From positions 1-35,738 of IMG/VR virus record IMGVR_UViG_3300017739_000039: 35,738 nucleotides of DNA, one strand, 5' to 3'. The notes beneath the pieces were generated by a model that did no database searches, was not told the origin of the DNA, and saw only the letters and a list, made by a program, of their open reading frames with translations. The stretch is from a virus. Position numbers and translations under genes: made by a program. Of this stretch, positions 12,139 to 25,416 are shown in pieces. Numbering within the stretch: the stretch's first letter is position 1; each line of letters begins with the position of its first letter.

Positions 12139-15129
12139 ATGGCAGGTTATACAAGACAATCAGTAGCTGACATTATTGCTAATGCAGTCATTAAAGCTGC
12201 ACCAGTAAACGCAGAATACAATGCTATTCGTGATGCTTTTGCTGCATCAGGTGGACACAAACATGATGGTAGTACAGGTGAAGGTGCTTATGTACCTCTT
12301 ATAGCTGATGCTGATGCCCTAAACAAAGTCACAGTAGATACATCAAATAACAGAATTAGTTTCTTTAATGAAGTATCTTCTTCTGCTGTAGAACAGATTA
12401 GATTAGAAGATGGTGTACTTAAACCTGTAACTGATAATGATATAGACCTTGGTGCTTCAGGTGCAGAGTTTAAAGATCTGTACGTAGATGGGATAGGTTA
12501 TATTGACTCTGTAGTTGTTGGAGATAATAATTATTTAACAATAACAAATAACGAGATTGATGTATCCTCTGGTAATCTTACCCTAGATGTAGCAGGAGAT
12601 ATTATTCTTGATGCAGATGGTGGTGATGTAACTCTTAAAGATGCAGGAACTACTTATGCTAACTTAAAAAATTCTTCTGGGGAGTTGGTTCTTCAAAGTG
12701 GTAGTACACCTACAACAGCAATAACTTTTAGTGGTGCTAATGCAGACTTTGCAGGAACTCTTGATGTTACAGGGGCAGTAACTCTAGACAGCACATTAGC
12801 TGTTACAGGAACAACTGCTCTTACAGGTACAGCAACTATTACCTCTGCTGACATTAACTCTGGTGCTATGGATAATACTACCATTGGTGCAGGTACTCCT
12901 GCAGCAGGTACGTTTACAGATCTTACAGCTTCAGGCACTACTACGATAACAACTGCAGACATTAATGGTGGAGCAATAGATGGTGTTACTATTGGTGGGT
13001 CTTCTGCAGGTGCAGGTACATTTACAGACTTAACAAGCACAGGAACATCGACACATGCTACGGTGGATATTAATGGTGGTGCTGTGGATGGCACAACAAT
13101 TGGTGCTTCTAGTGCTGCGGCAGCTAGCTTTACAACTGTTTCTACATCTGGTCAGGCGACATTGGCGACTGCTGATATTAATGGTGGTACTATTGATGGT
13201 GCTATTATTGGGGGTAGTACTGCTGCAGCCATAACAGGTACAACTATAACTGCAAGTAGTAACTTTGCAGGTAATATTACAGGTGATGTAACAGGTGATG
13301 TAACAGGTGATGTTACTGGTGACATAACAGGAAGTGTAACAGGTAACGTAACTGCAGGTTCTGGCTTATCTACATTTAACAATGTAACAGTCAACGGAAC
13401 ACTAGACGTTACAGGTACAACAATTGCTAACGTTACAGATCCTAGTAATGCACAAGATGCTGCGACTAAAAATTATGTTGACACACAGGTATCAGGGCTT
13501 GTTGACTCAGCACCTGGAACACTAAACACACTCAACGAACTAGCTGCAGCCATTAACGATGATGCAAGTTTTAGTACAACCATTACAAATAGTATAGCTA
13601 CTAAGTTACCACTAGCAGGTGGTACAATGTCTGGTGCTATAGCAATGGGTACAGCTAAGATTACAGGGCTAGGTGATCCAACAGCTAATCAAGATGCAGC
13701 AACTAAAAAGTACACAACAGATACATTCTTACCATTAGCAGGTGGAACTCTGACAGGTGCAGTAGCAGCAGGTAGTAACAAGATTACTGCTAGTTATACG
13801 CCAAGTGCTAGTGCTGATCTCACAACAAAAACATACGTAGATGGTATACTTGGTTCAGCTACTGCAGCTTCTACTTCAGCATCTGCTGCTGCTAGTTCTG
13901 CCACTGCTGCTGCCTCAAGTGCTACTGCTAGTGCTTCCTCTGCAACTGCTGCAGCTTCTAGTGCAACCTCTGCAGCAGCCAGTTTTGATTTGTTTGATGA
14001 CAGATTTCTTGGTGCTAAGTCATCTGCTCCTAGTACAGACAATGATGGTGATGCTCTTCAAGTAGGAACTTTGTATTTTAATACCACTTCTAATTCTATG
14101 CAGGTCTTTGGTGGTTCTGGTTTTACTGCTGCAGGTTCATCTGTAAATGGAACTTCAAGTCGTAACACGTATACTGCAACTGGTGGGCAAACAACATTTT
14201 CAGCTACATACGATTCTGGTTTTGTAGATGTATTTATGAATGGTATAAAATTATTATCAGGAACAGACTTTACAGCTACGTCAGGAACTACTATAGTTTT
14301 AGCAGCAGGTGCTATTGCAGGTGATATACTTGACATTGTTGCTTATGGTACATTTACCCTAGCTACACACTATACCAAAACAGAGGCAGATGCGAGATAC
14401 TTACTAGAGGCTAATAACCTCTCTGACCTAACTAGTGCAGCAACAGCAGTAACTAATTTAGGTATTACTGCCACAGCAGCAGAGCTTAACATCATGGATG
14501 GTGTAACAGCAACTGCTGCTGAACTAAACATATTAGATGGAGTAACAGCAACTGCTGCAGAGTTAAACAAATTAGATGGTATTAGTGCAACAACCACTGA
14601 GTTAAATATTCTTGGAGGTGTGACTGCAACCACAGCAGAATTAAATATTTTAGATGGGGTGACTGCAACTACTGCAGAATTAAACATAGTAGATGGCGTC
14701 ACAGCTACCACTGCAGAACTTAATATCTTAGATGGTGTAACTTCTACTACTGCTGAATTAAATATTCTTGATGGAGTTACAGCTACTGCTGCAGAGTTAA
14801 ATTTTGTTGATGGAGTTACATCAAATATACAAACCCAACTTAATACTAAAGGTGGAACGTTTACAACAAACGTTATTACATCAAACACAACTGCAGTTGG
14901 AAGTAATCACTACTACTTAAATGCTGCAGGTATTACACTTACACTTCCTTCATCTCCTACAGTAGGTGACGAAGTTAGAATTTCTGAAGTAGGTAGTAAT
15001 ACTGACAATGTTATTGGACGTAATAGTAGTAACATCATGGGTTCAGCAGAAGACATTACTATAGATACAGCATACACAGTAATTTATTTAAGATATGTAG
15101 ACTCGACTATTGGTTGGGCATTCTCGTAA
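12139..15129 (+). CDS. long tail fibre protein with several tandem repeat blocks
   Basis: 996 residues, no cysteine seen. The N-terminal part (about 1-140) has NAEYNAIRDAFAASGGHKHD and DLGASGAEFKDLYVDG, common in marine phage fibres. Then come about four copies of a roughly 36-residue unit around DINGGAIDGVTIGGSSAGAG, six copies of VTGD (12-base unit), an Ala/Ser-rich seven-residue-like repeat region, a beta domain (NTYTATGGQTTFSATYDSGF) and nine copies of a 13-residue TATTAELNILDGV unit. The C-terminal region (LTLPSSPTVGDEVRISEVG) is a small beta domain. It is most likely a trimeric fibre for host contact, with a variable repeat shaft. The start follows the nozzle stop directly. Confidence 0.85.
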   Translation: MAGYTRQSVADIIANAVIKAAPVNAEYNAIRDAFAASGGHKHDGSTGEGAYVPLIADADALNKVTVDTSNNRISFFNEVSSSAVEQIRLEDGVLKPVTDNDIDLGASGAEFKDLYVDGIGYIDSVVVGDNNYLTITNNEIDVSSGNLTLDVAGDIILDADGGDVTLKDAGTTYANLKNSSGELVLQSGSTPTTAITFSGANADFAGTLDVTGAVTLDSTLAVTGTTALTGTATITSADINSGAMDNTTIGAGTPAAGTFTDLTASGTTTITTADINGGAIDGVTIGGSSAGAGTFTDLTSTGTSTHATVDINGGAVDGTTIGASSAAAASFTTVSTSGQATLATADINGGTIDGAIIGGSTAAAITGTTITASSNFAGNITGDVTGDVTGDVTGDITGSVTGNVTAGSGLSTFNNVTVNGTLDVTGTTIANVTDPSNAQDAATKNYVDTQVSGLVDSAPGTLNTLNELAAAINDDASFSTTITNSIATKLPLAGGTMSGAIAMGTAKITGLGDPTANQDAATKKYTTDTFLPLAGGTLTGAVAAGSNKITASYTPSASADLTTKTYVDGILGSATAASTSASAAASSATAAASSATASASSATAAASSATSAAASFDLFDDRFLGAKSSAPSTDNDGDALQVGTLYFNTTSNSMQVFGGSGFTAAGSSVNGTSSRNTYTATGGQTTFSATYDSGFVDVFMNGIKLLSGTDFTATSGTTIVLAAGAIAGDILDIVAYGTFTLATHYTKTEADARYLLEANNLSDLTSAATAVTNLGITATAAELNIMDGVTATAAELNILDGVTATAAELNKLDGISATTTELNILGGVTATTAELNILDGVTATTAELNIVDGVTATTAELNILDGVTSTTAELNILDGVTATAAELNFVDGVTSNIQTQLNTKGGTFTTNVITSNTTAVGSNHYYLNAAGITLTLPSSPTVGDEVRISEVGSNTDNVIGRNSSNIMGSAEDITIDTAYTVIYLRYVDSTIGWAFS
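12838..13257 (+). repeat. about four approximate 36-residue coding repeats in the fibre
   Basis: The protein unit ADINGGAIDGVTIGGSSAGA plus GTFTDLTSTGT recurs with divergence. DINSGAMDNTTIGAG, DINGGAIDGVTIGGS, DINGGAVDGTTIGAS and DINGGTIDGAIIGGS mark the four copies. The unit is about 108 bases. Boundaries are approximate. Confidence 0.7.
13276..13347 (+). repeat. six tandem 12-base repeats encoding (V/I)TG(D/S/N)
   Basis: Consecutive codons read ITGD, VTGD, VTGD, VTGD, ITGS, VTGN. The three central DNA copies (13288-13323) are near identical (GTAACAGGTGAT), so the block could expand or contract by slippage. Confidence 0.85.
13855..13983 (+). repeat. Ala/Ser-rich repeat encoding a helical linker
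   Basis: The fibre frame encodes AAASSATAAASSATASASSA and similar, a roughly seven-residue periodic Ala/Ser/Thr tract. Such tracts in phage fibres are thought to form coiled or elongated linkers. DNA copies are degenerate around GCTGCTTCTAGTGCA. Boundaries are approximate. Confidence 0.7.
14467..14817 (+). repeat. nine tandem 39-base repeats encoding TATTAELNILDGV
   Basis: Nine units of 13 residues follow one another without gaps (variants TATAAELNIMDGV, TATAAELNKLDGI, SATTTELNILGGV, TSTTAELNILDGV and so on). The repeat is widespread in marine phage fibres. Two more units occur in the separate gene at 16725. Confidence 0.9.
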
Positions 15130-15141
15130 GGAAAAATAAAC

Positions 15142-16710
15142 ATGGCAAATATTAGTTCATTCTTTGGTGGTTCAGGTGGCAGTGGTTTAAGTACTGACTT
15201 CACTAAAAACGATTATGGTGTGCCACTCCCTGAATACATTACTTGTATTACTCACAAGTCCTCATGTACTATAACAGTCTGTCCAGGATATACATTTGAC
15301 AGTAATTCTAAAGGTTTTTCTCAGGGTGGTATTACAAATGTTAGAGACAACATTTTTATTGCTACAGGGGTAGAGCATCCTTTTACTAACAGTGATTGCA
15401 CAAAAATATTTGCAATGGCTTTTTGTGTTAATGATGACACTGGTGCTATTGTATCAGGTATGACAGAGTTTAAATGTGTTTTTCAAAGTGCTAGTACTAA
15501 TGACAGGTTTGCAGGAGAAACTCAAACACCTGGAGTTGGTGATGGTTGCTGTAGGGCTTATTATGGTCACGCATGTTCTGGTTGTGGAAGTTACACAATA
15601 CTTTGTACTAACAGTTCTTTTAACTGTATTGGTACTAGCTCTGCCACTCGATATGGTTGTAGTGCTGCAGGTGGTTCAACATCCCTAGTTTACAATGGTG
15701 TTCCTGGTTCAGTACTAGCTCACGCAGGTAATAACGAAGATCAAAACTCTTTTATTCGTTTTTGTAATGGTAATGTTTGTTTTAATAACAATCTAGGTAA
15801 TTCTTTAGGTTGTACAAATTGTTTTGCTAGTAGTAATTTAAGAGGAAAGTATGCACTAAGTCCTAACACTATTCTTTTGACTGGGATTTTTATGTGTGGT
15901 GGTGATTGTATTTGCCATAAAACAATTTTGTTTCAATGGAATGATGCAAATGATTGTTATAGAATGGCCTACTGTAAAGGAGAAAGTGGGTCACAAGTTA
16001 CAAATAGTAACTATGTCTGTTGTATCCTATGTTGCCACAGCCCTGGTCATGTTCTAGGAACTTCTTTTAGAGTTGGTCCAACCTTTTATCCTGAAGGTGG
16101 AGGTGCTTCATTTTATCACGAACCAGACTGTCAAAATTGCATAAGACAAAAGTTTTGTGTAAATGGAGGATGTTGTAGAGCTATGCACCCCCACTCTGTC
16201 TTGTTAAATTGGGAGGGGCAAAATCATTGGAATATGCAGATGAAAGGCACTAGAGGTAAAGATGATGCTTCCTCTACCTGTTACTATGCAACTAATAATG
16301 ACTTTACTATGAACTGGGTTTCTAACAGTAGTTGTATTTCTAACAGAGTTGGTCATTATGTTGGTGTACAACAAAATGGTGTGCTAGGTGCAGGTATAGC
16401 TCAAAAAAGTTGCTTTGCTTTTAATTGTGGTAATTTTGGGCAAGGTACAAGACAAGAGACTTATGGATCTTGGTCTACTCCACATGGTGAGTCTGTTAGA
16501 CAACTTTATCAGTATCCTAGAACAGCCCTAAGATCTTATCCTATACCACAATTTTGTAATTGCTATCAAACTTGTTGTTTTCATTTCTTAGCATCACAAG
16601 TTGTAGGATGTAAATGGATTGTAACTATGGAGTCAAGTCAGTGTTGCCAGTGTGAATGTGTAACATTACATGCTTACAAGATTATGACTAACTCATGTAC
16701 AGCAGATTAG
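15142..16710 (+). CDS. extremely cysteine-rich tail-region protein 1 (45 Cys in 522 aa)
   Basis: The first 20 residues (MANISSFFGGSGGSGLSTDF) form a short start and Gly/Ser linker like other phage fibre proteins. The rest is beta-rich with 45 cysteines (8.6%), including six Cys-Cys pairs and many CxC or CxxC spacings (CTITVC, CGGDCIC, CCILCC, CNCYQTCC, CCQCEC). No known metal-binding or repeat family is recognised. The even spread of cysteines through the chain argues against a single zinc finger domain. It lies between the fibre and mini-fibre genes in the same transcript. A tail fibre or receptor-binding role is inferred. Flanking structural proteins are almost cysteine-free, so the composition is specific to this gene and the one at 17420. 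Confidence 0.8.
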   Translation: MANISSFFGGSGGSGLSTDFTKNDYGVPLPEYITCITHKSSCTITVCPGYTFDSNSKGFSQGGITNVRDNIFIATGVEHPFTNSDCTKIFAMAFCVNDDTGAIVSGMTEFKCVFQSASTNDRFAGETQTPGVGDGCCRAYYGHACSGCGSYTILCTNSSFNCIGTSSATRYGCSAAGGSTSLVYNGVPGSVLAHAGNNEDQNSFIRFCNGNVCFNNNLGNSLGCTNCFASSNLRGKYALSPNTILLTGIFMCGGDCICHKTILFQWNDANDCYRMAYCKGESGSQVTNSNYVCCILCCHSPGHVLGTSFRVGPTFYPEGGGASFYHEPDCQNCIRQKFCVNGGCCRAMHPHSVLLNWEGQNHWNMQMKGTRGKDDASSTCYYATNNDFTMNWVSNSSCISNRVGHYVGVQQNGVLGAGIAQKSCFAFNCGNFGQGTRQETYGSWSTPHGESVRQLYQYPRTALRSYPIPQFCNCYQTCCFHFLASQVVGCKWIVTMESSQCCQCECVTLHAYKIMTNSCTAD

Positions 16711-16724
16711 TAGAGGAATAGTAA

Positions 16725-17054
16725 ATGAGTAAAGCAAGAGACTTAGCCAATCTACTGTCTACAGGAGGTGTCCTGAACGATGGTGTTATAAGTGTATCAG
16801 AAATTGAAAGTGTTACTGCTACTGCGACAGAGTTAAACCTTATGGATGGTGTCACTGCAACTACTGCAGAGCTTAATCATGTTGATGGTGTGACATCTAA
16901 TGTTCAAACTCAAATCAATGCAAAGGCAGCAACTGCTAGTCCTACATTTACTGGAACTGTAACTGCTCCTACTGTAAATGCTACAACTGATCTGACTGTA
17001 AACTCTGTATCTGTTACAACAGAAACCGAATTAAGAAAATCTTTCTTACTATAA
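16725..17054 (+). CDS. mini tail-fibre protein with TAAELN repeats
   Basis: 109 residues. The start MSKARDLANLLSTGGVLND is typical of marine phage fibre proteins. Two or so units of the TAAELNxxDGV repeat follow (VTATATELNLMDGV, VTATTAELNHVDGV), then VTSNVQTQINAK and a short beta tail. The order repeat-VTSN(I/V)QTQ(L/I)N matches the C-terminal end of the long fibre at 12139, so this looks like a shortened paralogue or a detached fibre segment. It may trimerise with, or adapt, the flanking cysteine-rich proteins. The gene is intact, with GAGGAATAG as ribosome binding site. Confidence 0.75.
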   Translation: MSKARDLANLLSTGGVLNDGVISVSEIESVTATATELNLMDGVTATTAELNHVDGVTSNVQTQINAKAATASPTFTGTVTAPTVNATTDLTVNSVSVTTETELRKSFLL

Positions 17055-17069
17055 AAATGGAATATTGAC

Positions 17070-17420
17070 ATGGCTTTTACTTACTCTCTATTAACAGAAA
17101 TAACACAGATAGCTGCAAGTGCAGGTGCAGTGTATACTAATCCTTCTAGTAAAACTACCTTTATAAGGTCTATTATACTTCATAATGCAAACTCTTCTGC
17201 AGAAGCTGTAGTTCTTTATAATGTTCCAGATAACGGTGGTTCAGTAGGTACAGCAGCTATAGCTAATCAATTTTATAAAGCAAGTGTTGCAGCAGAGAGT
17301 ACTGTAATAATTGAGTTTGCTACACCTGGTGTTGTTTTAGAAGATGTAAACGACACAATACAGGCAAGTACAACTACTGCTAGTAAAGTGACTATACAAA
17401 TTATGGGAGCAACTGAATAA
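17070..17420 (+). CDS. small beta-rich virion-associated protein
   Basis: 116 residues, no cysteine, mostly predicted beta strands (KTTFIRSIILHNANSSAEAV, STVIIEFATPGVVLEDVND, SKVTIQIMGATE). Small proteins with the FIRSIILHNAN...VVLY pattern occur in phage tail-fibre regions and look like a beta-sandwich trimerisation or attachment domain. It lies in the fibre transcript and its TAA overlaps the next ATG (TAATG), coupling it to the large cysteine-rich protein. A partner role for that protein is inference. Confidence 0.68.
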   Translation: MAFTYSLLTEITQIAASAGAVYTNPSSKTTFIRSIILHNANSSAEAVVLYNVPDNGGSVGTAAIANQFYKASVAAESTVIIEFATPGVVLEDVNDTIQASTTTASKVTIQIMGATE

Positions 17421-19858
17421 TGGGTATAACAGTTTTTCCACCAAGTACAAGTTCAGGGAGTAGTGGTGGCTCTGAAAAACCTTACAAGTGTATTCCTGCT
17501 TGTGGTGCAGTAGCTGCAGGTGATTTAGTCTCTTTAACTCCAGGAGAATGTGTAGTTCGTTCTTCAGTTAAAGGAGCAGACCAAGACGAAATGGCTTGTT
17601 TCTGTAATGGTAATGGTTCACAAAATGTTACATTAGGAGCATGGAATGTAGTAGTTCCTTTCTTGTGTGCAAATAATTGCTATGCACAAGTAACATTACA
17701 TAATGGTGAAAAATGTACAGATGGCTTTGCAGAGTGTTGTTGGAGATGCCCTTGTATTTTAGTTAATGCTGTTACAGTAAACTCTGATCAAAGCACTACT
17801 TGCTGTACAATATATAGTTGTTGTATTCTTTTAGGAACAGCAAGTTGGCAGTGTTATAATAGTGCAGGTGAATGTTGCTGTGCTCAATTACAATTCTGCT
17901 CTGCACCCATTGTTCTTCCTTCTTGTTCAGGTCATAAGTCAGCAATATTTTTACCTTGTAATAAACAGTTTTTAAAGTGTAATTCAAATTGTTGTATATG
18001 TGATATTTATCAACAAGAAATTTGGTTGTGTTATAATACAACTTCAAATGTAGTATCAGTCATCTGTAGTTGTTGTAATATTGAAGGTCTTAGTGCAACT
18101 GCTACTAACTTCTGTAAATGTGATAAGTTTTATTATTTTGTTAGTAATGACAGAAAATATTTAGTTGGACAAAAAGCAAGAGGATATCCAAGTAGTGCAG
18201 GAGATTCAGGTCTTAAAAAAGAATACATTGTAAAATGTGTAAATGATAACTCTTACTTAGGTATTACTGCTGCAACAGTTACAGGTTTCAATCCTTGCTC
18301 TGTTTGGTGTAGTACTTGCTGTACTCAATTTTCACCTAGTTTTTCTTTTGGTGCTTTTGGATGGGCCCCATTTAGTCAAGGACAAGATGGATGGATGCTT
18401 GGTAGATTTGTTGTAGACAAGAACCCTCAAACAGGTTCTTGTTGTTGTTTCTTTACAAAAACATGGGCTATTAAACCTACTGCTGATTGTGCAATAACAA
18501 TGTCAGCAAATATTCTTTGTGACGTAGATGGTAGTTGTAACTTGGTAACTTCAAGAACAGGCTACTACGCAATTAAAGAAGCTAAACAAGCATCTTGTAG
18601 ATTTACAACTCAAAGTAATACTGCTTGTCTGATAGGAGTTGGAAGAGTATGGGATGAAGGTGACTGTGTTAAAAAAGTTTCTCTCCCTACGTTTCATCCT
18701 TGCACTGGTTGCTGTAGAGTAGTTGCAGGTCTTGCTTGTTTTTGCATAGATGGAAGCTGTAATATTCAGTTTATGGGAGGGCAAAGTTGTGATGCCAATG
18801 ATGGTCAAGTTTGTTGCACTTGTAGTCAGGCTTGCAAACCACTTGCTAATGGCTACTATATTGATTCTAATGACTTCACTTGTAAATTCTATGCATGTAG
18901 TCAAATAGGGCATGGTTGTGATTTATCTGCTGTGCCATGTTTAAAAGGAGGTCAGTATGGTGGAACTCTGTCTTGTAGTGCTGATAGCTTTTTATATTAC
19001 AACTCTTATCCTACCTGTATACAACAAGGTAGATATAGAACTGCGTTACCCCACCAGTACATACATGGAAGTGGAACAGGCTATGACTATAGTCGTGACG
19101 CATTAGAGTGTGCTAAACTTCCTGAAGGTGGTACTGGTTGTCAGTCACTTGTTGAAGGAACTGATGGTCAAGATTACAAGTCTGCTTCAGAGTACAAACT
19201 TTGTGCTTGTACAACTTGTTGGAATTTAAATTGTAATGCTTTATTTACTAAAATTTTAGATGGAATTTGTGCAGGTAATAGAAACCCTGCAGATCACTTC
19301 TTTCATCCTGGAAGTTGTTGTTTAGCTTTTTCAGGTGGTTTCTTTCCACTAGGTACTAGTTCAACAGCCTTTATTGCTGCTCAAGGACCATCTGGGCAAT
19401 TTAACCAATGGTGTAGATGTTGCGTAATTAGTGTAAGGGCGTGGAGTCAAGTTTTTCATAAAGATGTTAAAGCCTCTACGATGGGTAGAACTTATGGTAT
19501 TGCTCAAAATACTGCAGCAAATGGAGAAATAGTATGTGTTGCAGTACAGGGTAATATTGATAAATCCCCATTTACTTGCACACAATTAGCTGCTAGATAT
19601 ACTGCTTCTGGTCCTGTTGCTCTGTGTGGAGGAGTATGCTGTGGTCAGCTTACAGGTTTTATAGCATGTAAGTGTACTGATAAACATACTAAGGGATCTG
19701 GTGCTCCACATGCTTGTTACTTTCGTGGGTTTGAACAAGGTGGTTGTTGCACTAATTGTCAAGTAAGACATGCTTATATTACACCTTACTATGATGCTAC
19801 AGAAGAACATTTAGTAGGAAAAATTTCAACTAGGAATGATGATTTAGAAAACATATAG
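17420..19858 (+). CDS. extremely cysteine-rich tail-region protein 2 (87 Cys in 812 aa)
   Basis: 87 cysteines in 812 residues (10.7%), spread from residue 24 to about 783, with about 14 CC or CCC clusters (ECCC, SCCC, CTCCTQ-like) and many CxC. The N-terminus is a short segment and Ser/Gly linker, then CIPACGAVAAGDLVSLTPGE, which resembles the usual phage fibre opening (xGAIAAGDxVxLxxDG) with cysteines inserted at other residues. Cys codons are mostly TGT. Strand-like blocks alternate Cys with hydrophobic residues. No known domain is identified. A receptor-binding or particle-surface role is inferred from its place as the last gene of the fibre block. The frame is real: 812 codons are uninterrupted, coupled by TAATG to the gene before. 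Confidence 0.82.
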   Translation: MGITVFPPSTSSGSSGGSEKPYKCIPACGAVAAGDLVSLTPGECVVRSSVKGADQDEMACFCNGNGSQNVTLGAWNVVVPFLCANNCYAQVTLHNGEKCTDGFAECCWRCPCILVNAVTVNSDQSTTCCTIYSCCILLGTASWQCYNSAGECCCAQLQFCSAPIVLPSCSGHKSAIFLPCNKQFLKCNSNCCICDIYQQEIWLCYNTTSNVVSVICSCCNIEGLSATATNFCKCDKFYYFVSNDRKYLVGQKARGYPSSAGDSGLKKEYIVKCVNDNSYLGITAATVTGFNPCSVWCSTCCTQFSPSFSFGAFGWAPFSQGQDGWMLGRFVVDKNPQTGSCCCFFTKTWAIKPTADCAITMSANILCDVDGSCNLVTSRTGYYAIKEAKQASCRFTTQSNTACLIGVGRVWDEGDCVKKVSLPTFHPCTGCCRVVAGLACFCIDGSCNIQFMGGQSCDANDGQVCCTCSQACKPLANGYYIDSNDFTCKFYACSQIGHGCDLSAVPCLKGGQYGGTLSCSADSFLYYNSYPTCIQQGRYRTALPHQYIHGSGTGYDYSRDALECAKLPEGGTGCQSLVEGTDGQDYKSASEYKLCACTTCWNLNCNALFTKILDGICAGNRNPADHFFHPGSCCLAFSGGFFPLGTSSTAFIAAQGPSGQFNQWCRCCVISVRAWSQVFHKDVKASTMGRTYGIAQNTAANGEIVCVAVQGNIDKSPFTCTQLAARYTASGPVALCGGVCCGQLTGFIACKCTDKHTKGSGAPHACYFRGFEQGGCCTNCQVRHAYITPYYDATEEHLVGKISTRNDDLENI

Positions 19859-19934: not shown

Positions 19935-20861
19935 GTGAAAAAACTATTTTTTATTGATGGGGGAGCAGGTCGTGCTATTGCATCTATACCTGCTTTCCTA
20001 AAGTATGCAAAGAAACATGATGACTTTGGTATACTAGTGCATGGATGGGATTCTCTGTACTGGGGTATTCCTGAACTACAAGACAAAGTTTTTAACCCTG
20101 AACAAAAAGGTATCTTTGATCAAGTAGTAAAAAATGCTGAAGAACTTGTATCTCCTGAACCATATCGAGTACCAGGATACTTTAAACAAGAGTTATCTTT
20201 AGCAGAAGCATTTGATGTTTTAATAAATAACACAGATGATCATTCTGATCTACAGTCTCCTATTATTAAAACAAACAAAGTAGAAGAAGTAAACGCAGCT
20301 AAATTAATTTTAGATGCTAAGGCTCAACAGCAAAAAGATAAGACTATTGTTATTCAGCCTTTTGGTAGATCAATGCAACGAACTGAAATAGATGCAGTTA
20401 TTGATGAATCATCAAGGTCACTAGACTCAGAGGTATACTTAAAACTAGTTAAGAAACTGGCTACAAAGTACAACCTAGTATTAATGGCAGAGCAACCTTT
20501 TCACTCTGACGTAGATACCTACACAATTAAACCTAATGCTGATCTAAGATTGTGGGCAGCATTTATTGATGCAGCAGATTACTTTGTTGGAGTAGACTCT
20601 GTTGGACAACATATGGCAAGGGCGTTAGATAAACCTGGCACAGTTATTATTGGGTCAACCTTTGCAGTAAATACTTCATATCCAAACTATTTTAATATTT
20701 GGGAAAGGAAAGTTCAGAAAAAGTATTCACCTATTCGTATCTCAGGTCTTGAGGGTCACTTGGCAGATAGACTTAATGAGAAGACTATGGAACTCACTGA
20801 CGAAGAAGTAAATCAGTTGTACCAAAGTATTACTAAAGATATAGAAAAAAAGGTGAAGTAA
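19935..20861 (+). CDS. GT9-type (heptosyltransferase-like) glycosyltransferase
   Basis: 308 residues. Two Rossmann-like halves are expected for a GT-B fold. The C-terminal half contains IVIQPFGRS (near 145) and DAADYFVGVDSVGQHMARAL (near 211-230), close to the family 9 signature A..FIGVDSG..H.A.AL.kP, ending in GTVIIGST. Family 9 enzymes transfer heptose from ADP-heptose in the cytoplasm, usually to lipopolysaccharide core and occasionally to protein serine. The N-terminus FFIDGGAGRAIASIPA fits a donor-site glycine-rich loop. GTG start with a weak AGAAAGAAGA site. Its neighbours encode ADP-heptose synthesis, which strongly suggests the donor. The acceptor is unknown. Confidence 0.78.
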   Translation: MKKLFFIDGGAGRAIASIPAFLKYAKKHDDFGILVHGWDSLYWGIPELQDKVFNPEQKGIFDQVVKNAEELVSPEPYRVPGYFKQELSLAEAFDVLINNTDDHSDLQSPIIKTNKVEEVNAAKLILDAKAQQQKDKTIVIQPFGRSMQRTEIDAVIDESSRSLDSEVYLKLVKKLATKYNLVLMAEQPFHSDVDTYTIKPNADLRLWAAFIDAADYFVGVDSVGQHMARALDKPGTVIIGSTFAVNTSYPNYFNIWERKVQKKYSPIRISGLEGHLADRLNEKTMELTDEEVNQLYQSITKDIEKKVK

Positions 20862-20862
20862 T

Positions 20863-22566
20863 ATGAACATCCTAGCTATTAACCCAGGTCACAATGGTTC
20901 TGCTGCTTTACTAGTAGATGGCGAACTAAAGTTTTATATTGAAGAGGAACGTCTATCTCGTAACAAGTATGATGGCAACCCTTTTGCAGGAATAATGGAA
21001 GCACTAAAGTATGGTGTAGACATCCTTGTTCTTGGTGGTACTTCAGAACATTTTCCACAGTTACCTTGGACAGGTGAAGATCCTTACTCTGGTTTTTTAC
21101 GTAAGTTTAATCGTAACCTTCAAGTTATAAATCTAGGTCATGCACATCATTTAGGTCATGCAGCAGGAGCTTTTTATAACTCTGGTTTTGACGAAGCTGC
21201 AGCAGTTATTGTTGATGGCTCTGGCACTCACAGACAAATTGATATTAACGGTGACTATAAAAACTCAGGTTTTGAAACAGAGTCTATATATAAGTGTGAC
21301 TATGAAGAGGGTATAAAAGAAGTCTTCACTTCTTATGGGGGTAACTACGATACCCAACGTGTTAGTAACGAAAACATAGAGATGGATAGTGCTATTACAG
21401 TAGTAAAGGCATACGAAGCTGTCTCAGAGTATCTTGGTTTTGGTTTTATTGAAGCAGGTAAAACTATGGGTCTTGCACCCTATGGTAAGTACGATGAAAT
21501 GATTCCTAGTCTGTTTTATAATAGTAGGGGAAACAAGAATGTATTTATCCCTAATTATCCTGCAGGTGCTCACATTGATCACACTCGTCACCCTTACTTA
21601 ACCTTAACAGAAAATCCTAAAGATTGGCACAAAGATCCTAGTAAGGTAACAGATGCTGCAAAGAATCTAGCTTGGGCTGTACAAGATGAGACACAAACAC
21701 TTGTTGGTGATCTAATACAAAAAGCAGTTGATAAGACAGGACAAACAAACATTGTTATTGCAGGAGGTTATGGATTAAACTGTGTAGCAAACTACTACTA
21801 CAAGAAACGTTTTCCTGACCTTAACATTTATGTTGATCCTATCTCTCATGATGGTGGTACATCTATTGGTCTAGCACAAATAGTCCATTACACAGAGACA
21901 AAAGAAAAAACAAAACGTCCACTAAATACTTTGTACCTTGGTCCTGAACGTAAAGAAAACTACGATCTAGAAGAATACGAAACAAAAAATGTTACTGCTG
22001 CTGATGTAGCTAAGTTAATTGCAGATAAAAACATTGTTACTTTGTTTCAAGGCAGATCAGAAGCAGGACCAAGAGCACTAGGAAATCGTTCTATACTCTA
22101 TGATCCTACAGACCCTAAAGGCAAGGACACAGTAAACAAGGTTAAAGGTCGTGAATGGTTTAGACCATTTGCAGGATCAATGCTCAAGGAATACTTTGAG
22201 GAATGGTTTGATACATACGGTATGGAAGAGACACCATTCATGATGTATGCAATGGACTTCAAGACTGAGAAGCATGGTGAAGTTCCTGCTATCACGCACG
22301 TAGATGGTACATGTCGTATTCAAACTGTAACTAGAGAGCAGAACGAGTCTTACTACGATTTGATTGAAGAGTTTCGTAAGATTACTGGTGTACCTATTTT
22401 GTTTAATACAAGTTTTAACCTAGCAGGTCAGCCACTTGTAGAAACATTAGAGGATGCACTATATACAATGAAGAACTGTGATATTGAGTATCTATATTTA
22501 CCTGACGTAGGTAAACTTGTTATGGTAACTTCTGAGCAAACTGAAGAAGATTCTCAAAAACCTTAG
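20863..22566 (+). CDS. O-carbamoyltransferase, NodU/TobZ/CmcH family
   Basis: 567 residues, full length for the family. The N-terminal ASKHA/Kae1-like domain starts MNILAINPGHNGSAALLVDG, has metal-binding HHLGH (95-99) and VDGSG (Asp118), and continues with GKTMGLAPYG and HDGGTSIG. The C-terminal YrdC-like half carries GRSEAGPRALGNRSI near residue 397. These enzymes make carbamoyl adenylate from carbamoyl phosphate and ATP and carbamoylate a hydroxyl, for example on Nod factors, tobramycin, or heptose of Pseudomonas LPS core (WapO). Here the heptose neighbours suggest a heptosyl glycan as substrate, an inference. It starts one base after the glycosyltransferase stop. Its 3' end overlaps the opposite-strand phosphatase by 47 bases. 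Confidence 0.9.
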   Translation: MNILAINPGHNGSAALLVDGELKFYIEEERLSRNKYDGNPFAGIMEALKYGVDILVLGGTSEHFPQLPWTGEDPYSGFLRKFNRNLQVINLGHAHHLGHAAGAFYNSGFDEAAAVIVDGSGTHRQIDINGDYKNSGFETESIYKCDYEEGIKEVFTSYGGNYDTQRVSNENIEMDSAITVVKAYEAVSEYLGFGFIEAGKTMGLAPYGKYDEMIPSLFYNSRGNKNVFIPNYPAGAHIDHTRHPYLTLTENPKDWHKDPSKVTDAAKNLAWAVQDETQTLVGDLIQKAVDKTGQTNIVIAGGYGLNCVANYYYKKRFPDLNIYVDPISHDGGTSIGLAQIVHYTETKEKTKRPLNTLYLGPERKENYDLEEYETKNVTAADVAKLIADKNIVTLFQGRSEAGPRALGNRSILYDPTDPKGKDTVNKVKGREWFRPFAGSMLKEYFEEWFDTYGMEETPFMMYAMDFKTEKHGEVPAITHVDGTCRIQTVTREQNESYYDLIEEFRKITGVPILFNTSFNLAGQPLVETLEDALYTMKNCDIEYLYLPDVGKLVMVTSEQTEEDSQKP

Positions 22567-23164
22567 TCTTCTTTCTTAGTTTCTCTTTCGAGAACTTCTG
22601 AAGATCTTTTTCAGTAGCTACCCCATGACCAGTACGTACTAAGATTGGGGTAGCACCAATACGTTCTGCAGCTTTAAGGTCTGTAATCTTGTCACCTACA
22701 AAAAACCCTCTATCTTTAAATCTGTACTTATTATTAAATAATTCTTTTTCTGCTCTGTGAAACATACCTATATTAGGTTTAGCAAAGCAATCACATTTAA
22801 GTGAAGATTCAGAATAAAACAAACCATCAATGGAGTAGACACCTGCATTACCAAAGACTTGCATCATACGTTGATGGACAGCTTCTACTTGGTCATGTGT
22901 CTGCTCTTTTTTTATAATACCACCCTGATTGGTTAGTATAACTAGTTTATATCCTTTGAGTCTAATCATACGAATAGCTTCAAGAGATCCTGGGATAACT
23001 TCCCAATCATCAGGATCAGAGATGTAACCTTTATCTATATTAATTACACCATCTCGATCTAGACCAACAATTGACTTAGGAAATACTTTAGGCCAATCGT
23101 CAGGAACATTTTGCTGTTGAATCTGTTGTGGGTCTTGTTCTATTATATGTTTAAATCTAGACAT
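22520..23164 (-). CDS. gmhB: D-glycero-D-manno-heptose 1,7-bisphosphate 7-phosphatase (GmhB-like, HAD)
   Basis: 214 residues, HAD superfamily. Motif I is GLDRDGVIN (Asp36, Asp38), motif II LTNQGG (77-82), motif III Lys129 in AKPNIGM, motif IV VGDKITDLKAA (Asp158, Asp162). The order and spacing match GmhB/HisB-N phosphatases, which remove the 7-phosphate from heptose 1,7-bisphosphate. The GmhB zinc loop is incomplete: the CDC half is present (Cys124, Cys126) but the preceding CxH is replaced by SES and the loop is shortened. An N-terminal extension of about 30 residues is Gln-rich. It is the only - strand gene in the cassette. It has a near-perfect promoter 7 bases from its ATG and no Shine-Dalgarno, so it is probably translated from a leaderless mRNA. 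Confidence 0.85.
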   Translation of the reverse strand: MSRFKHIIEQDPQQIQQQNVPDDWPKVFPKSIVGLDRDGVINIDKGYISDPDDWEVIPGSLEAIRMIRLKGYKLVILTNQGGIIKKEQTHDQVEAVHQRMMQVFGNAGVYSIDGLFYSESSLKCDCFAKPNIGMFHRAEKELFNNKYRFKDRGFFVGDKITDLKAAERIGATPILVRTGHGVATEKDLQKFSKEKLRKKTKVFENLLQFAQKLP

Positions 23165-23170
23165 GGTGTA

Positions 23171-23199
23171 ATTTTAAGTATGAAGAAGATATTTGTCAA
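23171..23199 (-). promoter_or_regulatory. consensus promoter for the inverted gmhB gene (leaderless)
   Basis: On the - strand, TTGACA (23199-23194) and TAAAAT (23176-23171) are separated by exactly 17 bases. Six bases (TACACC) lie between the -10 box and the ATG at 23164, so transcription should start at or next to the start codon. The -35 lies inside the divergent nucleotidyltransferase gene. Confidence 0.65.
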
Positions 23200-23590
23200 T
23201 GGAGCATTTGATGTAGTGCATTCAGGACACCTTGATCTACTTGATTTTGCTAGAGGTTTAGGCACTCATCTTCTCGTAGCTATTGACACAGATAGGCGTA
23301 TTGAGTATAACAAGGGAAAAGAAAGACCTTTCAATAAACTCAAGAATAGAAAACATTTAATTAGTTCGTTGAAATCTGTTACAAGTGTAGTAACGTTTGA
23401 CACAGACAATGATCTTCTTGCGATTCTTCAGAGGTATAAACCAGATGTAATGGTAAAAGGTTCTGACTGGAGGGGAAAAGAAATTATAGGGGAGGAGTAC
23501 TGTAAAGAGGTAGTCTTCTATGAAAGAGTCAACAAAGAGTCAAGCACCAAAATCCTTAAAAGTTTTGTTGATAGGAGACAGTTGTTATGA
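23180..23590 (+). CDS. hldE-C (rfaE2-like): D-glycero-beta-D-manno-heptose 1-phosphate adenylyltransferase (HldE C-domain-like)
   Basis: 136 residues equal to one nucleotidyltransferase domain. The N-terminus MKKIFVNGAFDVVHSGHLDL contains the GxFDxxHxGH signature (HSGH at 14-17). It continues FARGLGTHLLVAID, PDVMVKGSDWRGKEIIG and SSTKILKS, which line up well with the C-terminal half of HldE (VKGGDYKPEEIAG and CSTTNIIKK in E. coli). It would couple heptose 1-phosphate with ATP to give ADP-heptose. The start at 23180 is chosen over an in-frame ATG at 23111 because it gives the canonical N-terminus; the longer form would run through the divergent gmhB start. It overlaps the kinase gene by 71 bases. 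Confidence 0.88.
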   Translation: MKKIFVNGAFDVVHSGHLDLLDFARGLGTHLLVAIDTDRRIEYNKGKERPFNKLKNRKHLISSLKSVTSVVTFDTDNDLLAILQRYKPDVMVKGSDWRGKEIIGEEYCKEVVFYERVNKESSTKILKSFVDRRQLL

Positions 23591-24281
23591 TGAATATCAT
23601 TATGGTTCTGTAAATAGAATTAGTCCTGAAGCTCCTGTTCCTATATTTGATTTACATGACACCGTTTCAAAAAAAGGAATGGCGTACAACGTACACAATA
23701 ATCTTGTAAATCTAAAACTTAAAGTAGATATTATAACAGAGTACTCTGAACGTAAGCATAGGTATGTTGATATTAAAACAGGTCAACAGCTTATAAGAAT
23801 AGACGAAAAGATAAAGAAACAATTCTTTGATAACGCAGAACAAATCTTAGATAACTATGCAGCAGTAATAGTTTCAGACTACAATAAAGGATTTGTTGCT
23901 GACAACGAAATAGAAGATCTTATAAAAAAGTACAAAGGTCCTATCTTTGTAGACACTAAGAAAAAAGATCTAGCCCAATTTGATGGTTGCTTTGTAAAAA
24001 TAAACCAGTACGAGTACGAAGCACGAGAGTCAGATACCGAAGAACTTATAGTTACATACGGCTCAAAGAAAGTCGAGTATAAAAACAGAACCTACATTCC
24101 TCCGAAAGTAGAAACTCATGATGTGTGTGGTGCAGGTGACACCTTTCTAGCTGCCCTTGTCTATAAGTATTTAGAAAAACAAAGTATAGACGAGGCTATA
24201 AGGTTTGCAATGAATGCAGCAGCAGTTACGGTGCAACATATAGGTGTCTATGCCCCAACACTAGAGGAAATTACTAGATGA
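23520..24281 (+). CDS. hldE-N (rfaE1-like): heptose 7-phosphate kinase (HldE N-domain-like, PfkB family), compact
   Basis: 253 residues against about 315 for the bacterial domain. LKVLLIGDSCYDEYHYG and RISPEAPVPI are near-exact counterparts of the HldE kinase N-terminus. LIRIDE, VSDYNKGF, VDTKKKD and the PfkB signature DVCGAGDTF (201-209, catalytic Asp207) follow. About 35 residues corresponding to the lid region after VDIIT are missing. It would phosphorylate D,D-heptose 7-phosphate at O-1. In bacteria this domain is usually fused before the nucleotidyltransferase; here it is separate and placed after it, overlapping by 71 bases. AGAGG about 10 bases upstream supports the ATG. Its TGA overlaps the cupin ATG. 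Confidence 0.86.
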   Translation: MKESTKSQAPKSLKVLLIGDSCYDEYHYGSVNRISPEAPVPIFDLHDTVSKKGMAYNVHNNLVNLKLKVDIITEYSERKHRYVDIKTGQQLIRIDEKIKKQFFDNAEQILDNYAAVIVSDYNKGFVADNEIEDLIKKYKGPIFVDTKKKDLAQFDGCFVKINQYEYEARESDTEELIVTYGSKKVEYKNRTYIPPKVETHDVCGAGDTFLAALVYKYLEKQSIDEAIRFAMNAAAVTVQHIGVYAPTLEEITR

Positions 24282-24634
24282 GGCTTGAAGGATTTGTAGA
24301 AAAAGGTTGGGGGTCTGAGTTTATATGGGCAACTAACGACAAATACTGTGGTAAATTTTTAAAGTTTAACAAAGGTGCAAAGTTTTCAATGCACTTCCAC
24401 AAAGAAAAAGATGAGACTTGGTTTGTTATATCAGGTAAATTTAAAGTCGTATGGATTGACACAGAAAACGCAGAACATAAAGAAGTTTCTTTGTTAGAAG
24501 GAGATGTTTGGCACAATCCACCACTAGTTCCTCATCAAGTAATTTGCTTAGAAGAGGGGAGTCTAATGGAAGTCTCTACTCCTGATTCTGTAGAAGACAA
24601 TTACAGAGTTGGTAAGGGTGACAGCCAAGAATGA
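24278..24634 (+). CDS. cupin sugar-phosphate enzyme, mannose-6-phosphate-isomerase-like
   Basis: 118 residues, a single cupin domain. Motif 1 is complete: Gly33, His39, His41, Glu46, Gly53 with the standard spacing (the core is SMHFHKEKDETW). Motif 2 gives Pro81 and His86, so all four metal ligands are present. The opening GWGSEFIWATNDKYCGKFL resembles cupins of the type II mannose-6-phosphate isomerase group found in sugar-nucleotide clusters. No GmhA (SIS-domain) isomerase is in the window, so this cupin is a candidate for making D,D-heptose 7-phosphate from sedoheptulose 7-phosphate, or for another isomerisation. That is inference. It is coupled to its neighbours by ATGA-type overlaps on both sides. 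Confidence 0.75.
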   Translation: MRLEGFVEKGWGSEFIWATNDKYCGKFLKFNKGAKFSMHFHKEKDETWFVISGKFKVVWIDTENAEHKEVSLLEGDVWHNPPLVPHQVICLEEGSLMEVSTPDSVEDNYRVGKGDSQE

Positions 24635-25416
24635 AAATACTAGTTACTGGTCACAAAGGGTTCATTGGTCAGAACATGGTCAATGCCCTAAAAGATAAAC
24701 ATCAAATTTCTACGTATGAGTGGGGGAATCAATACCCAATACTAGATGGTCTTGATTGGGTAATACACTTAGGAGCAGTAAGCTCTACCACAGAAAAAGA
24801 CATACGTAAGATAACAGTACAGAATATTGAGTCCTCTATATATTTGTATGAAGACTGTATAGAAAGAGGAATAAACTTTCAGTTTGCTAGTTCTGCTTCA
24901 GTCTATGGTTTAGATCCTTGTGGTTTTAAAGAGACTGCAGTCTTAAATCCCCTGAATCATTATGCTAGAAGTAAAGCTCTATTTGAGAACTACATCAAAT
25001 ACAGAGATGCTCCTATAATAACTCAAGTATTTAGATACTTTAACGTATACGGTGATCACGAAGATCATAAAGGAGAACAGGCAAGTCCTTATACTAAGTT
25101 TAGAAAGCAAGCAAAAGAAACTGGAAAGATAAAACTATTCAAGAACTCAGAATATTTTTACAGAGATTTTATTCACGTAGACAAGATTATAGAGTATCAT
25201 CAAAAGTTTTTCTCTATAGAAAAGTCAGGTGTCTGGAACGTAGGTACAGGTTTTGAAAGAAGTTTTTACGAGGTTGCTTTAGAAATATGTAAAGAAACAG
25301 AAGCAACTATCGAGTGGATAGAGATGCCAGAAAATTTAAAGAATAGTTATCAAGACTTTACTAGGGCAGATACGGTTAAACTATGGCAGACGTTAGACTT
25401 ACCACAGAAGAATTAG
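24631..25416 (+). CDS. hldD: ADP-L-glycero-D-manno-heptose 6-epimerase (HldD-like), compact
   Basis: 261 residues against about 310 for HldD. It is an extended short-chain dehydrogenase: TGHKGFIGQ dinucleotide loop (6-14), SSTTEKD, and YxxxK as Tyr111 and Lys115 (YARSK). The HldD-specific FRYFNVYG (134-141) is followed by HKG with Lys147, equivalent to the catalytic Lys178 of E. coli HldD, then FYRDFIHVDKI and WNVGTGFERSF. It would invert C6 of ADP-D,D-heptose. About 25 residues are missing near the N-terminal nucleotide-ribose region, and roughly 25 at the C-terminus, where the gene ends shortly after SYQDFTRAD. The next gene starts 34 bases inside it. Key residues are intact, so activity is plausible. 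Confidence 0.88.
   Translation: MKILVTGHKGFIGQNMVNALKDKHQISTYEWGNQYPILDGLDWVIHLGAVSSTTEKDIRKITVQNIESSIYLYEDCIERGINFQFASSASVYGLDPCGFKETAVLNPLNHYARSKALFENYIKYRDAPIITQVFRYFNVYGDHEDHKGEQASPYTKFRKQAKETGKIKLFKNSEYFYRDFIHVDKIIEYHQKFFSIEKSGVWNVGTGFERSFYEVALEICKETEATIEWIEMPENLKNSYQDFTRADTVKLWQTLDLPQKN

Follow-up and report, generated by a model that had tools for sequence, protein, structure and literature searches.

Gene content of the locus

The window analysed here, the whole stretch of 35,738 bases making up the virus record, came from an HMO-2011-type phage with a portal protein 85% identical to that of Roseobacter phage CRP-9. Comparison of the portal, coat and tail module identified orthologues of its coat and tail proteins in CRP-9, CRP-13 and HMO-2011. 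Directly downstream of two genes for cysteine-rich fibres lay genes for a heptosyltransferase-like glycosyltransferase (GT), a carbamoyltransferase and ADP-heptose synthesis:

12139..15129, + strand: large tail-fibre protein, 996 aa, cysteine-free
15142..16710, + strand: second cysteine-rich fibre protein, 522 aa, 45 Cys (composition and homologues)
16725..17054, + strand: small fibre-like ORF, 109 aa, 0 Cys, between the two cysteine-rich genes (weak PHROG tail-fibre matches)
17070..17420, + strand: conserved 116-aa ORF (phrog_20100), marker gene preceding that for the 812-aa cysteine-rich fibre
17420..19858, + strand: cysteine-rich fibre/adhesin protein, 812 aa, 87 Cys (composition)
19935..20861, + strand: GT9-type heptosyltransferase-like enzyme (GT), phrog_8954, 308 aa (profile, AlphaFold and PDB)
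20863..22566, + strand: NodU/TobZ-type carbamoyltransferase (Pfam Carbam_trans_N and Carbam_trans_C; PDB homologue TobZ)
22520..23164, - strand: GmhB-like heptose-1,7-bisphosphate phosphatase (NCBIfam NF006506, E 5e-41, below equivalog cut-off)
23180..23590, + strand: HldE-type heptose-1-phosphate adenylyltransferase (TIGR02199, E 1e-30, below cut-off; start at ATG 23180)
23520..24281, + strand: HldE-type heptose-7-phosphate kinase, PfkB (TIGR02198, E 3e-37, below cut-off)
24278..24634, + strand: small cupin (Pfam Cupin_2 and MannoseP_isomer)
24631..25416, + strand: HldD-like ADP-heptose 6-epimerase (TIGR02197, E 2e-63, below cut-off)

Four ADP-heptose pathway enzymes were looked for, HldE kinase, HldE adenylyltransferase, GmhB and HldD, and all were represented, each scoring below its equivalog cut-off, as divergent phage copies. 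A cyanophage homologue of the cupin (T4-GC 307) is annotated as 'cysteine dioxygenase', and Pfam placed the window protein with general cupins and mannose-6-phosphate isomerase. CRP-9, CRP-13, CRP-207 and HMO-2011 shared the structural backbone of the window phage but differed in having cysteine-poor fibres, and no GT/heptose cluster was found in 45 kb of each.

Two cysteine-rich fibre proteins

Translation of the ORF at 17420..19858, which was free of stops, yielded 87 cysteines in 812 residues (10.7%) with 14 CC or CCC clusters distributed along the entire protein, as a preliminary description of the sequence had reported. That description also held that neighbouring structural proteins were nearly devoid of cysteine, which was true of the remaining structural ORFs (0 to 3 Cys) but not of the upstream 522-aa protein, where 8.6% of residues were cysteine and which belongs to the same phenomenon. 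Apart from these two, every protein of the window contained next to no cysteine. At the cysteine frequency of the other ORFs in the window (0.27%), the binomial probability of 87 cysteines was ~1e-106. TGY codons numbered 87 in frame, whereas the two alternative forward frames contained 7 and 64. Cysteine was encoded by 71 TGT and 16 TGC codons, a ratio matching the GC3 of 0.17 for this ORF, so that the cysteine codons look normally selected. Recoding of TGY was dropped on this ground and because cysteine positions were kept in cysteine-rich homologues. Antisense ORFs of fibre genes do look cysteine-rich, but such a frame artefact is not the case here.

Profile searches of Pfam, PHROG and NCBIfam returned no match for either cysteine-rich protein. 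The N-terminus of the 812-aa protein (MGITVFPPSTSSG..) was conserved and common to cysteine-rich fibres of related phages. A tblastn search with the first part of this protein, cysteines masked, gave no match; the first residues of the query differed from those of the protein (GVSKPYK for SEKPYK), which cannot account for the null result. The protein had no full-length homologue, and its one weak partial homologue (L135, 6717-9029; 30% identity over 300 aa) itself contained 99 Cys in 770 aa and adjoined a GT. A 110-Cys protein of contig L094 was rejected as a homologue because the alignment was unconvincing. Homologues of the 522-aa protein were found at L089 2491-4062 (65% identical, 35 Cys) and, at 31% identity, in L124 and L125; its AlphaFold model had a mean pLDDT of 28.

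Recurrence and pattern of cysteine in related loci

Since direct scans of IMG/VR and of named phages with the 812-aa protein recovered no relatives, the 116-aa neighbour gene was taken as bait. It retrieved five IMG/VR contigs, each with two or three cysteine-rich fibres in the same place, and later more; all IMG/VR loci recovered with this neighbour at >= 74% identity bore cysteine-rich fibres there. In one close relative (L093:6286-7401, the same contig as L120) the first cysteine-rich slot was held by a cysteine-poor 371-aa ORF, propeller-like by eye, and the second fibre was still cysteine-rich. Another phage with the 116-aa marker (L102:8351-9793) encoded cysteine-poor Gly-rich adhesins, a counterpart of the Gly-rich tips that may be decorated elsewhere. 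Homologues of the cysteine-free 996-aa window fibre in the GT-bearing HMO-2011-group loci L122 and L126 contained 22 and 43 Cys.

With cysteines masked, 139 cysteine-rich ORFs formed 43 or more sequence groups, among them Gly-rich tips, IGYxAL-repeat proteins and segments that appeared coil-like by eye. Given so many unrelated groups, it is cysteine, and not the fold, that is the common factor. Within IGYxALxxNTTGxNN repeats, cysteine sat at the variable positions. Cysteine was among the most conserved residues in three homologue pairs (78%, 78% and 92%, against overall identities of 65%, 53% and 75%). Where it was lost in these pairs, it was mostly replaced by polar residues, often in odd numbers, and between close homologues cysteines were gained or lost singly at polar positions. 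Full-length cysteine-rich ORFs showed no bias towards even cysteine numbers (59 odd, 70 even). CC, CxC and CxxC spacings were in modest excess, that of CxxC being weak (81 against 65, z 2.2), and a search of the sequence context of cysteines found no sequon. Ser and Thr were also abundant in these fibres.

Genetic linkage to a glycosyltransferase

The genetic association between cysteine-rich fibres and the GT was very strong. With a cysteine-rich ORF defined as one having 8 or more Cys within 100 aa, such an ORF was present in 71 of 88 GT loci and in none of 89 loci without GT (Fisher p 2e-33, a value that is indicative only, as loci are not phylogenetically independent and some controls do not span the fibre genes). 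Among GT loci for which 3 kb or more of upstream sequence was available, 64 of 72 had a cysteine-rich ORF, at a median gap of 695 bp. In the reverse direction, GT was found in all 67 testable loci of one cysteine-rich family (those with at least 2.5 kb downstream). The named cyanophages with GT were the same set as those with cysteine-rich relatives (S-SSM7, S-SSM6a, Sf-FS3, S-CAM1, S-CAM3, P-SSM2 and P-SSM5). The same GT occurred in single-cell marine viruses, as well as in cyanophages P-SSM2, S-CAM1, S-CAM3 and S-SSM7; in each of six GT regions examined, cysteine-rich ORFs (7.6-11.6% Cys) adjoined it. A tryptophan halogenase and 2OG-Fe(II) oxygenases were encoded in the S-SSM7 cluster (L112:15390-22380) as well, a hint of additional modifications. 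Genome bins provided seven distinct full-length GT matches (two of the eight entries look identical), mostly on phage-like contigs and all with cysteine-rich neighbours.

Phages that had not been used to find the link showed it too. In Vibrio phages SBP1, K479 and D497 and Aeromonas phage HJ05, GT homologues of ~28% identity abutted cysteine-dense tail proteins (23-41 Cys, reaching 10-13 per 100 aa); in relatives of the Vibrio tail protein without GT nearby, the total was 7-10 Cys and the density never exceeded 3 per 100 aa. In N4-like Vibrio phages (L298:9747-14678 and L300:12745-15522; SBP1 belongs to the Schitoviridae), the cysteines of the tail protein adjoining GT were located in coil-like AMTTYTNxxLxACSAEL repeats. 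A cluster on a Woesearchaeota MAG contig (L206:6046-11317) comprised a 52-Cys Gly-rich protein with a signal-like N-terminus beside GT, carbamoyltransferase and a GmhB-like phosphatase, surrounded by ordinary cellular, chromosomal-looking genes.

The neighbouring enzymes followed GT to differing degrees. A carbamoyltransferase accompanied it in 51 of 54 loci, and about half of GT loci had no recognisable heptose genes within the stretch examined, so the sugar may vary. Phage P-RSM4 had a carbamoyltransferase, with neither GT nor a cysteine-rich ORF in the 150 of 176 kb covered, and S-SM2 had heptose genes, also with neither GT nor a cysteine-rich ORF. In eight GT loci, each with 3 kb or more of upstream sequence, a cysteine-rich ORF was lacking (L149, L150, L153, L164, L168, L169, L170 and L187); extending the sequence of some of these revealed one on the L168 contig only. 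On the T4-like contigs L169/L170 and L149/L150, which carried GT (and carbamoyltransferase) and in which no cysteine-rich ORF was found, sulfotransferase-like genes lay nearby, and the acceptor may differ there.

The glycosyltransferase and known systems

The window GT matched phrog_8954 (E 1.3e-86) and scored 21 bits against Pfam PF01075, just below the cut-off of 22. Querying PDB sequences with its profile yielded nothing useful. Its AlphaFold model (pLDDT 93.4, from 45 sequences) had TibC as the nearest PDB structure (E 5.5e-9, TM 0.59), with WaaC/WaaF nearly equal; the lead over these LPS enzymes is so slight that the fold leaves a protein or an LPS acceptor undecided. TibC uses ADP-heptose as donor, glycosylates Ser, as does AAH, and requires a four-Cys iron finger (PMC4358343). 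The BAHT systems (TibC/TibA and AAH/AIDA-I) resemble the window system in the nearest solved fold, and would also do so in dedicating an ADP-heptose enzyme to many sites on a surface adhesin; an adhesin-like gene does adjoin the window GT. In contrast to TibC, the window GT was shorter (308 aa), phage-borne and paired with a hypercysteine partner, and with 0 Cys it has no iron finger, so it was not filed as a BAHT member.

Attachment of sugar to cysteine would be the point of likeness to glycocin S-glycosyltransferases such as SunS, which acts on the prophage-encoded sublancin. SunS-type enzymes belong to a different family, use a hexose donor and modify one or a few cysteines of a small secreted peptide, compared to the dozens proposed for a fibre. 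Closer in gene content were cyanophage 'LPS' clusters (P-SSM2, S-SSM7; T4-GC 302-308), which comprise the same GT, carbamoyltransferase, HldE, cupin and HldD genes and adjoin cysteine-rich ORFs annotated merely as hypothetical. In a 2010 comparison of cyanophages, these were treated as LPS genes without an assigned use that might be 'stuffer DNA' or be linked in function (PMC3037559). Our search of the open literature found no description of cysteine-rich tail fibres.

Possible function of the cysteines

As cysteine-rich fibres occurred in unrelated phages almost exactly where GT adjoins, the cysteines probably serve as attachment points for sugar. We put at roughly two in three the probability that they are acceptor sites for the phage-encoded GT, which would add heptose that is probably then carbamoylated. 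The 812-aa and 522-aa proteins would be receptor-binding fibre modules of the virion, with many surface cysteines as glycosylation acceptors. The phage's own GmhB, HldE and HldD homologues would make ADP-heptose. Ahead of assembly, in the reducing environment of the cytoplasm, the TibC-like GT would move heptose from this donor onto cysteine thiols through an S-heptose (thioether) bond. The NodU-type carbamoyltransferase would then probably carbamoylate the sugar, as its near-constant presence beside GT suggests. As other virion proteins are almost cysteine-free, cysteine could act as an address confining the coat to fibre tips, where the sugar may be displayed or serve as a shield at the host-contact surface. 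The LPS of picocyanobacteria and of many Rhodobacteraceae is not known to contain heptose, and Vibrio and Aeromonas make their own. In the former hosts the donor would have to be made, which may account for the complete heptose pathway carried by some phages. Covalent modification of cysteine had been among the options in the preliminary description; the genetic link to a TibC-like heptosyltransferase now favours it, and the chemistry proposed here is what we infer beyond that link.

That description had also offered a hardened adhesin, in which cysteines kept reduced in the host form a dense disulfide network upon release into oxic seawater. The very high cysteine content, the conserved positions and the modest excess of close spacings are all consistent with this, but the lack of an even bias, together with single gains and losses at polar positions where pairwise conservation might be looked for, disfavours a simple disulfide network. 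Both window proteins have odd cysteine numbers, cysteine-rich segments occur (by eye) in coil-like stretches too, and tracking with the glycosyltransferase gene would be left unexplained, so we regard this explanation as unlikely. The remaining option, metal capture or display, in which metal bound by the thiols would lure host metal receptors in the manner of a Ferrojan horse, appears extremely improbable: thiol density would suit it and others have proposed that phages carry metal, but the weak CxxC excess gives no metal-site signature and the link to GT is again unaccounted for.

Other readings retain the enzymes and change their target. GT could modify Ser/Thr or another fibre residue, with cysteines playing an associated but separate part, for example in keeping the glycosylated fold stable. 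TibC and AAH do modify Ser (PMC4358343) and the fibres are rich in Ser and Thr, but phage fibres commonly contain these residues whether GT is present or not, and the trait common to unrelated fibre families is cysteine; we consider this reading quite improbable. It is very unlikely that the carbamoyltransferase S-carbamoylates fibre cysteines directly while the heptose enzymes act elsewhere. HypF does carbamoylate a protein cysteine, and the enzyme rarely parts from GT; against this, P-RSM4 has the carbamoyltransferase with neither GT nor a cysteine-rich ORF, the GT loci L165-L167 have a cysteine-rich ORF and no carbamoyltransferase in the stretch examined, and none is annotated beside GT in the Vibrio and Aeromonas regions, where many genes are hypothetical. 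We give equally little credence to remodelling of host LPS or capsule by the GT cluster for superinfection exclusion, with the cysteine-rich fibres a linked cassette that is biochemically unconnected. Distant similarity to LPS heptosyltransferases and the filing of these genes as LPS genes in the cyanophage comparison (PMC3037559) point that way. However, adjacency persists in podoviruses, cyanomyoviruses and Schitoviridae, whose cysteine-rich proteins are unrelated, the association holds in both directions, and S-SM2 keeps heptose genes with neither GT nor a cysteine-rich ORF.

Implications for marine phages

Heptosylation of fibre cysteines would explain the odd composition of these fibres and give a testable function to the heptose and 'LPS' genes of ocean cyanophages, once considered possible 'stuffer DNA' (PMC3037559). 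On balance, we think it probable that this represents a widespread form of viral protein glycosylation with cysteine as the address code, in which fibre tips of ~10% Cys are S-heptosylated (and carbamoylated) by a dedicated transferase to give a sugar-coated receptor-binding surface. The parts of the system are of known kinds and it would work like adhesin heptosylation, though we know of no such coupled system. If the proposal is correct, neither an S-glycosylated virion nor an S-heptose linkage was, to our knowledge, known before, and an archaeal contig that looks chromosomal (L206) would hold a copy of the cysteine-addressed system. Ocean phages would then coat their receptor-binding tips with their own sugar via an unusual cysteine linkage. 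This would matter for host recognition and for how fibres are read from sequence, as their surfaces would be partly sugar.
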